This document shows positions 52,251 to 56,487 of a stretch of DNA of 64,000 nt, in pieces. The translations under genes and the position numbers were made by a program. Source of the DNA: an uncultured Nitrosomonas sp. (GTDB lineage: Bacteria; Pseudomonadota; Gammaproteobacteria; Burkholderiales; Nitrosomonadaceae); NCBI GenBank assembly GCA_949281375.1, contig CASDLT010000040.1, forward strand, positions 124,001 to 188,000, written 5' to 3'. Below the pieces are notes generated by a model. That model had not been told where the DNA came from. It was given only the letters and a program-made list of their open reading frames with translations, and ran no database searches. Within the stretch, counting starts at the first letter, position 1, and every line of letters begins with the position of its first letter.

Positions 52251-53003
52251 TCAAGTGGCGCAAGAAGAATTACCCATTTTTAGTCTGAGTCGATCAATGT
52301 CATTGATTTGTATGTGTTTATTATCGACTGTGATAATGCTTTCATCTTGTAGTTTAGAAAAAGCACGGCTTACCGTCTCAAGTTTGAGGCCGAGATAACT
52401 GCCGATTTCTTCTCGCGTCATGCGTAAATTAAAATTGTATTCCGAGTATCCGCGAATTGAGAAGCGACGGGATAAATTGAGCAAAAAACTTGCTAATCGT
52501 TCCTCTGCTTTCATGCTTCCCAGCAATAGCATGACGCCATGATCTCTTACAATTTCGCGGCTCATGATTTTATGGAAATGGTGCATCAGTGAAGGAATAG
52601 AGAGGCTGATTTCTTCTAATTTTGCAAAAGGAATTTCACAAACTTCGCTATCTTCGAGCGCAACGGCATCGCAGGTGTGAATTTCAGAGCTGATTGCGTC
52701 CAGTCCGAGCAGTTCGCCAGTCATATGGAAGCCAGTGACTTGCTGCCGTCCGTCTTGCTCTAAAACGCAGGTTTTGAGAAATCCGCTACGGATGGCGAAA
52801 AGTGATTGAAATTTGGTGCCTGTATGATGGAGATAGCCGCCTCGTGGAATCTTGCGCTTATGGCTAACTACATCGCCGAGTTTCTGTATTTCCTGAGTAT
52901 TAAGGCCCACTGGTAAGCATAGCTCTCGCAGGCTACAGGTTGCGCAGCTTGATTTGATATTGGATATATCGAGATGACTATATGATGAAGTTTGTAAAGA
53001 CAA
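52251..53003 (-). CDS. fnr: FNR-type oxygen-responsive regulator
   Basis: 250 residues. Iron-sulfur cysteines at 20, 23, 29 (CATCSLRELC) plus Cys122 (VCEIPF), the same numbering as E. coli FNR, and a recognition helix with ETVSRAF, matching the Glu-Ser-Arg contacts of FNR. Start is TTG at 53003; no ATG fits and the Cys numbering supports it. A perfect FNR box lies 42 bp upstream, between this gene and the divergent HemN-like gene. Confidence 0.92.
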   Translation of the reverse strand: MSLQTSSYSHLDISNIKSSCATCSLRELCLPVGLNTQEIQKLGDVVSHKRKIPRGGYLHHTGTKFQSLFAIRSGFLKTCVLEQDGRQQVTGFHMTGELLGLDAISSEIHTCDAVALEDSEVCEIPFAKLEEISLSIPSLMHHFHKIMSREIVRDHGVMLLLGSMKAEERLASFLLNLSRRFSIRGYSEYNFNLRMTREEIGSYLGLKLETVSRAFSKLQDESIITVDNKHIQINDIDRLRLKMGNSSCAT

Positions 53004-53044: not shown

Positions 53045-53058
53045 TGATCTTGATCAAT
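53045..53058. promoter_or_regulatory. FNR box
   Basis: TTGATCTTGATCAA is a perfect TTGAT-N4-ATCAA site. A GATAAT hexamer at 53080-53085 puts a plus-strand start near 53092, so the site centre is close to -41, the class II activator position for the HemN-like gene. It may also autoregulate fnr. Confidence 0.8.
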
Positions 53059-53152
53059 GAACCTTCCCACGATCTAAGGATAATTTTACCGATATTACTG
53101 AATAAAGTGGAAACTCTTTTTAAATTCCATTCCTCTCAAAAGGAATAATTGG

Positions 53153-54547
53153 GTGAATCCATCGTTAATTTCAAGCTCATTACCAGTCAATATCAATCTA
53201 ATTCGACAATTTGAGCACCATTATGCTGACTATCGATTATATCCATTAATGGAATATTTTGATCATGCATATGATGCCTTTGCTTATACTTCGTGGCTCA
53301 ATGATCACAATACCCGCTATTTTCGCAAATCCTTATCTCTGCATATCCATATCCCTTTGCGGGGTGCAGTGTGTCAATTCAATCAAATTCTTTTTCAAGA
53401 AAATGACGATATAGAAAAGTATCTGCATTATTTGATTCGTGAAATAGAGCTTCAGGCGCATTTATTTGAGGATGATATTAGAGTCGAACAGATTTATTTT
53501 GAGGGCGGCGCGATCAATATCTTAAGCAGCGAGCAACTGAGCGGCGTCATTGATGCAATAGAGCGGAAGTTTAGCGTGATCAACGAAAAAGAGCTGTATA
53601 TCGAGATCGATACACAGTTGGCGACACCTTATTCGATGTGCCAATTAAAAAGCGCTGGCTTTAATTGCGCAATGATGGGGGATAATGCCTTCGATCAGGT
53701 AACGCCGCAATCTGTTCATCACTTGCAGCCAGAAGATCGCATGGTTCCGGCCATCCGGGATGCTCAGGATGCCGGATTTAAAACGATCAGAGTTGAACTG
53801 ATCTATGGATTGCCAAACCAAAGGCTGGAGAATTTTCTGTTCACGCTGAATAACATCATTGCCGCAAATCCTCATCAAATTCGATTGCTGAACTATCTTT
53901 ATTTCCTCACCAAACTCAAGCCGCAGAAGAAAGACCTTCAAGAAGGCTGGCCTGCAGAAGAGGCAGGATTTGAAATGCTTACAGTGGCGATGGGCTATTT
54001 GGCCGATGCGGGTTATGTTCATATTGGGATGAATCTTTTTGCATCCCGTCATGATCAACTGGTAGCCGCTCAGCGGCAAGGCCGGTTATATTATGGTTTG
54101 CAGGGCTATTCGATTAATCCGGATTGCACGCGCGTTGCGGTGGGTGTTTCCGCAATTGGAAGTATTGGGCCTGTTTTATATCAGAATTTCTGCAACCTTC
54201 AATCCTACTACGACAAGCTTGAGCGCAATGCGCTTCCTATTATGCATGCTCATGAAATGAGTGCTGATGACTTAATCCGCCGTTCTGTCATGCAGGCGCT
54301 GATTTGTCATTCAGTATTATCCTATGAGTCGGTAGAAACTTTTTTTTCGATCGAGTTCAGGCAATACTTCGCACCTGAGCTTTCTGATCTGCGAGTATAT
54401 GAACAAGCGGGGCTGCTTACGCTGAAGGATGAAGAAATTGTGGTAACGCCAATGGGACAATCATGGGTGGGAAATATTTGTCAGGTATTCGATCGCTATT
54501 TACGTACCAGCAGACAACAAAATAAGGATTATCCCATTCAGCCATGA
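53153..54547 (+). CDS. HemN-like protein lacking the radical-SAM cysteines
   Basis: 464 residues collinear with oxygen-independent coproporphyrinogen III oxidase HemN over the whole length: YPTAxxF-like start region, IELIYGLPNQRLENF, YVHIGMNLFA, GLQGYSINPDCTRVAVGVSAIGSIG, LIRRSVMQALICHSVLSYE. But the iron-sulfur motif, HIPFCxxxCxFCxC in HemN, reads HIPLRGAVCQFNQI: only the second Cys (Cys74) is left, with Arg70, Asn77 and Ile79 at the others, and GGGTP is replaced by EGGAI. It cannot bind the 4Fe-4S cluster in the usual way. The reading frame is intact, so a new role is likely. Confidence 0.88.
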   Translation: MNPSLISSSLPVNINLIRQFEHHYADYRLYPLMEYFDHAYDAFAYTSWLNDHNTRYFRKSLSLHIHIPLRGAVCQFNQILFQENDDIEKYLHYLIREIELQAHLFEDDIRVEQIYFEGGAINILSSEQLSGVIDAIERKFSVINEKELYIEIDTQLATPYSMCQLKSAGFNCAMMGDNAFDQVTPQSVHHLQPEDRMVPAIRDAQDAGFKTIRVELIYGLPNQRLENFLFTLNNIIAANPHQIRLLNYLYFLTKLKPQKKDLQEGWPAEEAGFEMLTVAMGYLADAGYVHIGMNLFASRHDQLVAAQRQGRLYYGLQGYSINPDCTRVAVGVSAIGSIGPVLYQNFCNLQSYYDKLERNALPIMHAHEMSADDLIRRSVMQALICHSVLSYESVETFFSIEFRQYFAPELSDLRVYEQAGLLTLKDEEIVVTPMGQSWVGNICQVFDRYLRTSRQQNKDYPIQP

Positions 54548-54609: not shown

Positions 54610-54918
54610 TTATTTTACTTGACTGTTCGACAGCACATAGTCAGCCAATCGATCTGCCGCGTCACCCTGGATATTTTTAAAGGCCGGCATTCTCATGCTT
54701 CCCGACTGAAACTTTTTGGTAATGGCTTCTTTAGTTGCGACTTTTTCGCTCAATATCATGGCTACGTCAGGGCTTAAGGGTTTATGACATTCAGTGCAGA
54801 CTGAACTGAAAATCTTTTCACCTGACGCATCTGCCGGAGGGGTATAGTCCCTGCTCGTACTACAACCTATCAGTAAGAATGCTGCAGACCCTAAGAGTGC
54901 TAATTTTAAGTTTTTCAT
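54610..54918 (-). CDS. Small lipoprotein cytochrome c
   Basis: 102 residues: lipobox LIGC, heme-binding CTECH near residue 41 and probable axial Met in MRMPAF. Class I-type monoheme electron carrier tethered to a membrane. Start 54918 begins MKNLKLAL. Convergent with the HemN-like gene. Confidence 0.88.
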   Translation of the reverse strand: MKNLKLALLGSAAFLLIGCSTSRDYTPPADASGEKIFSSVCTECHKPLSPDVAMILSEKVATKEAITKKFQSGSMRMPAFKNIQGDAADRLADYVLSNSQVK

Positions 54919-55104
54919 GATTAACTCCATATCCGTTGATTTCAAAAAGTTTGAATGTGGCAAATCGCAATCCGATCGATTCAAGATTTTGCCATCGTCG
55001 TTGCTGTGTAACTGTGAGCCAAATTTGCTGGCCACCTTACCGCGGGGTATGACTCATTGTCAAACAAATGTTTGAATAGTTCGTCGTGATGAAAGGTTGG
55101 ATTT

Positions 55105-55728: not shown

Positions 55729-56487
55729 ATGTTTAAGAAAATTAGTATCTGTATCGTGCTCGCTGCACTGAGTTTGGCAATAAATCGTCCCGCTGCGGCT
55801 GACAAGACCGTAGAGGATTTTGAAGTGTGGGGAGGTATTTTCACACAGGGTAATTTTGGTTTCTTGAATTCGCAAAACCCTGATTTAAAAAAATTCAGGT
55901 GGTGGATGGAAGGACAAGGCCGGTTTGGCAATGATGCCACGCAATTTACCCAATCTTTAATTCGTCCTGGCTTGGGTTATGCAATAACCGATAAAATCGT
56001 CGTATGGGCAGGTTATGCTTGGGCGCCTACGGCTGAACCGTTGTCAATAGCGCATCCATTTAATGAGCATCGGATCTGGCAACAAGTAACTTGGGCGGAT
56101 AATTTTTCATTTGGCAGATTATCGGCGCGTAGCCGTCTTGAGCAGCGATTCTTTGACCATAATGCACCCATGCCTGGCTCAAATGATGTGGGTCATCGAT
56201 TCCGTCAACTGGTTAAATTGGCAGTACCAATGCCGTCATTAAATCCGAATCTTAGTTTTATCGTTCAAAGTGAATTGTTTATTGGCTTGACGAACATTGA
56301 TAATAATCCTGGCTTTATTTCTCAAGGTTACGATCAGAACCGGGCCTTCGTTGGATTGGGTTACAAAGTCAATCAAATTGCGACCGTTGAATTGGGCTAT
56401 ATGAACCAATTCATCAATCGGCCGCATAGCGCTCGTCCAGATCAGATGATGCATAACCTTGTAGCCAGCTTGTTTTTAAACTTCTGA
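55729..56487 (+). CDS. DUF2490-family outer-membrane protein
   Basis: 252 residues: signal peptide ending RPAAA, then a beta barrel rich in aromatic strands (FRWWMEGQGRFGND, LIRPGLGYAITDKIVVWAGYAW, RLEQRFFD, FVGLGYKVN) ending in a C-terminal Phe. Function of DUF2490 is unknown. AGAGGAGA precedes the start. Confidence 0.87.
   Translation: MFKKISICIVLAALSLAINRPAAADKTVEDFEVWGGIFTQGNFGFLNSQNPDLKKFRWWMEGQGRFGNDATQFTQSLIRPGLGYAITDKIVVWAGYAWAPTAEPLSIAHPFNEHRIWQQVTWADNFSFGRLSARSRLEQRFFDHNAPMPGSNDVGHRFRQLVKLAVPMPSLNPNLSFIVQSELFIGLTNIDNNPGFISQGYDQNRAFVGLGYKVNQIATVELGYMNQFINRPHSARPDQMMHNLVASLFLNF

Follow-up and report, generated by a model that had tools for sequence, protein, structure and literature searches.

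A HemN homolog lacking the radical-SAM site beside fnr in Nitrosomonas is a candidate pseudoenzyme under purifying selection

The window analyzed here is the whole stretch of 64,000 nucleotides from an uncultured Nitrosomonas sp. (GenBank assembly GCA_949281375.1). Within it, a gene for a full-length homolog of the oxygen-independent enzyme family HemN is transcribed divergently from fnr and convergently with a gene for a c-type cytochrome (Table 1). Its reading frame runs for 464 codons without an internal stop, and the sequence AAAAGGA precedes the GTG start. The cytochrome gene is used here as a synteny marker, and no functional part is claimed for it. Two genes downstream of the hemN homolog, at 55729-56487, lies a gene for a DUF2490 protein that is conserved in many Nitrosomonas.

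Table 1. Positions in the window of the hemN homolog, its promoter elements and its neighbors
Feature	Position	Strand	Remark
Divergent fnr (250 aa), N-terminal cysteine cluster CATCSLRELC	52251..53003	-	Conserved neighbor
FNR box TTGATCTTGATCAA	53044..53057	+	Score 10/10
-10 element GATAAT	53079..53084	+	Centre 31 bp from the centre of the FNR box; putative function
Full-length HemN homolog without radical-SAM site	53153..54547	+	464 aa, GTG start, stop included
Remnant of the cluster motif, residues 64-78, HIHIPLRGAVCQFNQ	53342..53386	+	Replaces YxHxPFCxxxCxxCxCxK; only C74 (=Cys66) left, Cys69 deleted in frame; from alignments
EGGAIN at the GGGTPT site, residues 117-122	53501..53518	+	From alignment
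HemN_C domain, residues 370-436	54260..54460	+	Pfam E 4.8e-7; most constrained part after motif loss
Convergent c-type cytochrome gene	54610..55035	-	Conserved downstream neighbor

By overall homology the encoded protein belongs with HemN. The TIGR00538 model for HemN covers residues 13-457 of the protein at 324.2 bits, against a curated cut-off of 324.95, and the same model scored it at 323.7 bits in a search of the whole genome, also below the cut-off. Escherichia coli HemN (PDB 1olt) is the best match by sequence as well as by fold (residues 13-454 aligned, E 7e-65). At an E-value of 0.001, HemN_C was the only Pfam domain found in the protein and Radical_SAM was absent, and none of the three marks of the radical SAM superfamily, namely CX3CX2C, GGGTP and the Pfam Radical_SAM domain, is present. 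Assignment to the HemW type was considered and rejected, as the HemW heme motif HNxxYW occurs nowhere in the 464 residues and the score with TIGR00539 (HemW) is 77 bits against a cut-off of 205.

Residues of the active site were read from an alignment to 59 canonical HemNs, that of E. coli among them. The original prediction held that three of the four cluster cysteines of HemN were lost and that GGGTP was gone, and the alignment bears out both statements: where HemN has YVHIPFCxxxCxxCxC the window protein reads HIHIPLRGAVC...QFNQ, so that the CX3CX2CXC motif is represented by R70, C74, a deletion at Cys69 and F76, and the glycine-rich segment is replaced as given in Table 1. In the numbering of canonical HemN, the site as a whole reads Y56H, C62R, C66C, C69 deleted, C71F, R149Q, Q172N and R184H, and the HLP segment is gone too. 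The N-terminal arm is YADYRLYP in place of GPRYTSYP. H64 stands at the position of Tyr56 and L316 at that of F310, the two second-SAM residues conserved in canonical HemN.

An AlphaFold2 model of the protein, built from 36 window and locus sequences (mean pLDDT 79.2, pTM 0.80), is predicted to have the full-length HemN fold, with both the barrel and the C-terminal domain retained. The top PDB match of this model in Foldseek was 1olt (E 2.9e-38, TM 0.82/0.88), and the next match had an E-value of 2e-7. The loop at residues 70-80 has a pLDDT below 50, but residues 71-80 are also low in a control model of a copy that keeps the cluster motif (pLDDT 87.3), and the disordered cluster loop is therefore not diagnostic. 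Compared with the control, confidence drops at about residues 178-192 and 248-261, which are the HemN segments with Gln172-Arg184 and HLP.

The FNR box that the original prediction placed in front of the gene is there and is perfect. As positioned from the -10 element it lies near -41.5, which is the spacing of a class II FNR promoter. The arrangement recurs throughout the genus: among the full-length copies with enough upstream sequence the box scores 9-10 of 10 in 44 of 45 and 8 of 10 in G004, and in all 45 a -10-like hexamer lies 21-23 bp past the box, again putting the box near -41.5. All 17 copies that have lost the cluster motif (described below) combine a box of at least 8/10 with a -10 hexamer at the fixed spacing. 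The leader of the window gene (53058-53152) and that of its counterpart in Nitrosomonas sp. JL21 are approximately 100 bp shorter than in most relatives, with the box 109-111 bp upstream of the aligned start versus about 200 bp. Of the 39 genomes that lack the full-length gene, 20 had their locus examined as well, and there the box scores 10 in six, 9 in five and 8 or less in nine. Because 11 of these 20 gene-less loci keep a box of at least 9/10, the presence of the box is no proof of its use; judged from these sequences, the box tends to vanish after the gene is lost, although not at once. That the box belongs to fnr only is unsupported as a rule, since nine of the 20 loci have no box at that score, though the others keep one.

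The order rpsB-tsf, fnr, hemN, cytochrome c, DUF2490 and RapA is common to most copies in the genus, as far as the sequence stretch extends, and fnr adjoins a canonical hemN in four of five outgroup loci (outgroup locus L024 was left out). Since the gene order of the genus is kept and fnr lies beside hemN in the outgroups, the window gene represents the ancestral hemN rather than a stray paralog, and it was inherited vertically as part of a conserved fnr-hemN divergon. When named genomes were scanned for conserved blocks, almost all of the nearest matches carried the name Nitrosomonas, the nearest being Nitrosomonas sp. JL21 (G074), at 74% identity. The genome that contains the window is 3.04 Mb long and 99.99% complete. 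A second intact hemN, the presence of which had been left for checking, was not found there: a TIGR00538 search at 1e-40 recovered the window gene alone, and a protein search of the genome gave no further HemN candidate, the other homologue it returned being a separate, intact HemW on contig C38 with CX3CX2C and HNTNYW.

To place the window gene within its genus, 85 Nitrosomonas genomes were sampled. TIGR00538 has a match at 1e-40 in 46 of them, and 42 of the 85 exceed the family cut-off. The set examined comprises 46 full-length copies from 45 genomes; G008, in which the N-terminal part is missing at a contig edge, was excluded from the tree and the codon work. In some copies the stop falls a few codons short of where the match ends; it was masked as a gap in the codon alignment, and the last residues of these copies are unreliable. 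One metagenome-assembled genome (MAG), G091, contributes two copies, from two diverged fnr-hemN loci (L039 and L047); the contamination of this MAG is listed at 7%, and so the two loci are probably from two strains.

Several features of canonical HemN have been replaced in the genus as a whole. The N-terminal arm is altered in all 46 copies, with G20, R22 and S25 of HemN never kept, and the genus shares replacements at several residues of the second-SAM site or the substrate side. Cys71 is absent from 43 of the 46. The three copies with a cysteine at this position (FFCHCNQ; L048, L049 and L011, from G080, G079 and G033, respectively) are surrounded in the tree by copies that have Phe or Ser there, a pattern that may reflect either retention or regain. 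Sites were classed as genus-derived if 90% or more of the 59 canonical HemNs agree on one residue and 80% or more of the 29 motif-kept copies on a different one; there are 22 such sites, among them D209E, R308Y, F310L, Y336L and F381S. The window protein retains the derived residue at 21 of these 22 sites, in part because the sequences are closely related, as well as all 18 of the ancestral conserved sites at residues 301-360 and 22 of 24 in HemN_C. The genus as a whole had already replaced residues specific to HemN (for the most part Cys71, the N-terminal arm, F310, R308 and Y336) when the radical-SAM cysteines were lost.

The CX3CX2C motif is intact in 29 of the 46 copies, and at least one of its three cysteines is gone in the other 17. 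In a protein tree for which canonical HemNs served as the outgroup, these motif-lost copies fall into ten groups, four of them with more than one copy (the window and JL21; G005, G031, G092 and G102; G029, G032 and G089; G024 and G093) and the rest with a single copy (G007, G108, G026, G004, G087 and G002). A motif-kept sister is supported at 96-100 for G108, G026, G004, G087 and G002. The gene tree, which has weak inner nodes (support 28-61), suggests ten independent cysteine losses on the presumption that no cysteine was regained, or at least eight if the three deep clades with weak placement (window and JL21, the G005 group, and G024 with G093) are merged. The cysteines lost differ between groups, and much of the remaining first-SAM site decays alongside them, most motif-kept copies having its residues intact and most motif-lost copies having them changed together. 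Partial decay of this site is seen in the motif-kept copies of G103, G107, G083, G071, G006 and G018, and the motif-lost copy of G087 shows little change beyond the cysteine. The original interpretation, that the active site had been lost specifically, holds in that the protein is still under purifying selection, as set out below, but the loss is not private to the window gene, since the genus shows about ten in all.

Pairwise codon likelihood for the window and JL21 copies gave a dS of 0.62, a dN of 0.165 and an omega of 0.265, with a likelihood ratio of 82.8 against an omega of 1. Among eleven further pairs in which one or both members are motif-lost, ten had an omega of 0.14-0.42 and G107/G108 one of 0.495, and in eleven motif-kept pairs omega was 0.08-0.35, with nine at or below 0.18. 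A branch model with 46 sequences estimated omega at 0.140 for motif-kept lineages, 0.182 for the stem branches on which the losses occurred and 0.245 after loss, the last being approximately 1.75 times the motif-kept value. The post-loss omega rejects both 1 (2dlnL 441) and the motif-kept value (2dlnL 55), and so constraint has weakened yet is far from gone. The relaxation is real, since the gene has been deleted or broken in many relatives. Approximately 41 stops would be expected under neutrality on the two branches since the window and JL21 split, and there is none inside either frame; no internal stop was found in any of the 17 motif-lost copies. A dN/dS near 1, by which the idea of a preserved protein was to be judged, is therefore absent, and the omega values and open frames rule out a simple pseudogene, in line with the original prediction.

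Selection after motif loss is uneven along the protein. In fits with branch lengths fixed from the 46-sequence branch model, post-loss omega is 0.27-0.31 in the barrel, 0.21 at residues 301-360 and 0.135 at residues 361-455 (HemN_C), compared with 0.14-0.16, 0.11 and 0.099, respectively, in motif-kept copies, and the C-terminal domain is thus nearly unrelaxed. For the N-terminal arm, the corresponding test gave a 2dlnL of -1.6, which is optimizer noise. Relaxation of the whole genome in motif-lost species was considered and is not seen at the neighboring fnr, for which omega is 0.009-0.152 in 12 of the pairs.

We lean towards the view that the window gene encodes a HemN pseudoenzyme, driven by FNR, whose residual role does not involve radical chemistry. 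The sequence part of what defines a pseudoenzyme, a homolog kept by selection after its catalytic residues are gone, is found here. On this view the vertically inherited hemN of Nitrosomonas has turned into a pseudoenzyme. At the ancestral fnr-hemN divergon, the gene has lost its [4Fe-4S]/SAM site as a set (Tyr56, the cysteines, GGGTP, Arg149, Gln172, Arg184 and HLP), and selection has since kept it open and conserved. FNR may switch the gene on at low oxygen from the class II promoter. The product would presumably be unable to cleave SAM or to oxidize coproporphyrinogen III, and the aerobic HemF may cover that job. Catalysis is not expected because the N-terminal "trip-wire" and Tyr56 are both altered; for HemN, PMC13266988 gives the trip-wire a presumed role when substrate and product associate or are released, and describes Tyr56 as stacking on the second SAM. 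The most tentative step is that selection may be keeping a non-radical property of the HemN scaffold, via the C-terminal half. That property would most likely be the binding of a tetrapyrrole (coproporphyrin(ogen) or heme) or of a partner from the heme pathway. Tetrapyrrole binding is a fair guess and no more, based on the existence of HemN-like heme binders without dehydrogenase activity.

A serious rival, which we regard as possible but less probable, is that a dispensable gene is slowly being lost, such that the active-site residues go first, then the frame and then the gene, and motif-lost copies are dead or nearly so and only temporarily kept. HemF makes HemN dispensable in the presence of oxygen, and HemF was found in 39 of the 41 genomes searched, that of the window among them. 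Consistent with such a course, 39 of the 85 genomes have no full copy of hemN (no TIGR00538 match at 1e-40), remnants of the gene lie between fnr and the cytochrome gene in four of the 20 gene-less loci, G010 holds pieces of the gene with a stop, and omega rises after motif loss. Slow loss fits less well with the age of the loss in the window and JL21, which predates their split and has been followed by branches with an omega far below 1, or with the 17 motif-lost copies, which all lack internal stops where dozens would be expected neutrally and which all have an intact promoter. The uneven selection, strongest outside the catalytic site, also argues against it.

A more tentative possibility is that the HemN of the Nitrosomonas ancestor already had a second, non-radical job, in which the C-terminal half handled tetrapyrroles at low oxygen under the control of FNR, and that radical-SAM chemistry was dropped afterwards. 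Because such a job needs no cluster, the chemistry could have been dropped about ten times in parallel. Were this so, a single genus would hold a natural series leading from a HemN-like radical SAM protein to a pseudoenzyme.

The role put forward in the original prediction, that of a heme or porphyrin sensor or carrier at low oxygen, is a special case of the pseudoenzyme reading and seems unlikely in that specific form. The FNR-type promoter would suit it, as would His290, a residue found in every motif-kept copy and 76% of the motif-lost ones but in none of the 59 canonical HemNs. HemN-like heme carriers are known, namely HemW and Campylobacter jejuni CgdH2 (Cj0363c), the latter being described in PMC10320005 as a HemN-like protein that binds heme and showed no coproporphyrinogen dehydrogenase activity. 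CgdH2, unlike the window protein, keeps the 4Fe-4S motif and sits in the MenK-like branch. Against a sensor or carrier, the window protein lacks HNxxYW, the genome has an intact HemW of its own, and His66 is kept in just 53% of motif-lost copies.

Continued radical SAM activity, with C74 and other ligands holding a cluster, is highly improbable: one motif cysteine is left in the window and JL21 copies, but Tyr56, GGGTP, Arg149, Gln172 and Arg184 have changed as well, the residual ligand sets vary between clades, and the confidence of the cluster loop is low, though it is low in the motif-kept control too. Sequencing or assembly error, for which nothing was found at the window gene, can be dismissed, because the sister species JL21 carries the same Arg at Cys62 and the same missing Cys69 codon; single-tip losses in MAGs (e.g., G026 and G004) might individually be errors, but other motif-lost copies belong to an isolate, N. 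ureae Nm13 (G007), and to G108, a genome in a single contig.

Comparison with known systems places the window protein close to HemN/CgdH (TIGR00538), with which it shares full-length homology, the predicted fold, the C-terminal domain, adjacency to fnr and the FNR box. It differs from them in lacking CX3CX2CXC, GGGTP and Tyr56, in having the GPRYTSYP arm, Cys71, R308, F310 and Y336 replaced, and in scoring just under the family cut-off. Motif-kept Nitrosomonas copies (e.g., N. oligotropha Nm45 and Nm75) share with it the orthologous locus, the promoter and the genus-derived residues; unlike it, they keep CX3CX2C and the first-SAM site, usually without Cys71, and for that reason are likely to be radical SAM proteins still. 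The heme chaperone HemW resembles the window protein in being HemN-like without being a coproporphyrinogen oxidase, but HemW has HNxxYW and usually CX3CX2C, whereas both motifs are missing from the window protein, whose scores place it with HemN. Class C radical SAM methylases (NocN, 9p2u) share the two-domain HemN-like architecture, with a weak sequence match. NocN, according to PMC13266988, binds two SAMs with an intact cluster, and this cluster/SAM site is gone in the window protein. FNR has been described in Nitrosomonas MAGs, in an article in which hemN appears, within the portion available, only in the title of a reference (PMC8510549). Among the open-licence papers searched, we found no literature on hemN in Nitrosomonas beyond co-mention and no description of cluster-less HemN relatives, from Nitrosomonas or elsewhere.

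Its recurrence across the genus makes the loss of the active site more notable than when it was first observed in a single gene. If the pseudoenzyme reading is correct, one genus would supply motif-kept, partly broken and cluster-less orthologs at one locus and under one promoter, and with this full range a residual low-oxygen role of HemN could be tested by simple comparison. A "hemN" annotation in Nitrosomonas does not establish anaerobic heme synthesis, since most motif-lost copies still pass the family cut-off. The remnants of the gene at gene-less loci differ in extent, that at L169 (G025) being the largest and those at L157 (G101), L163 (G036) and L165 (G100) being short; they are apparently of different ages and may form a series for dating the loss of the gene.
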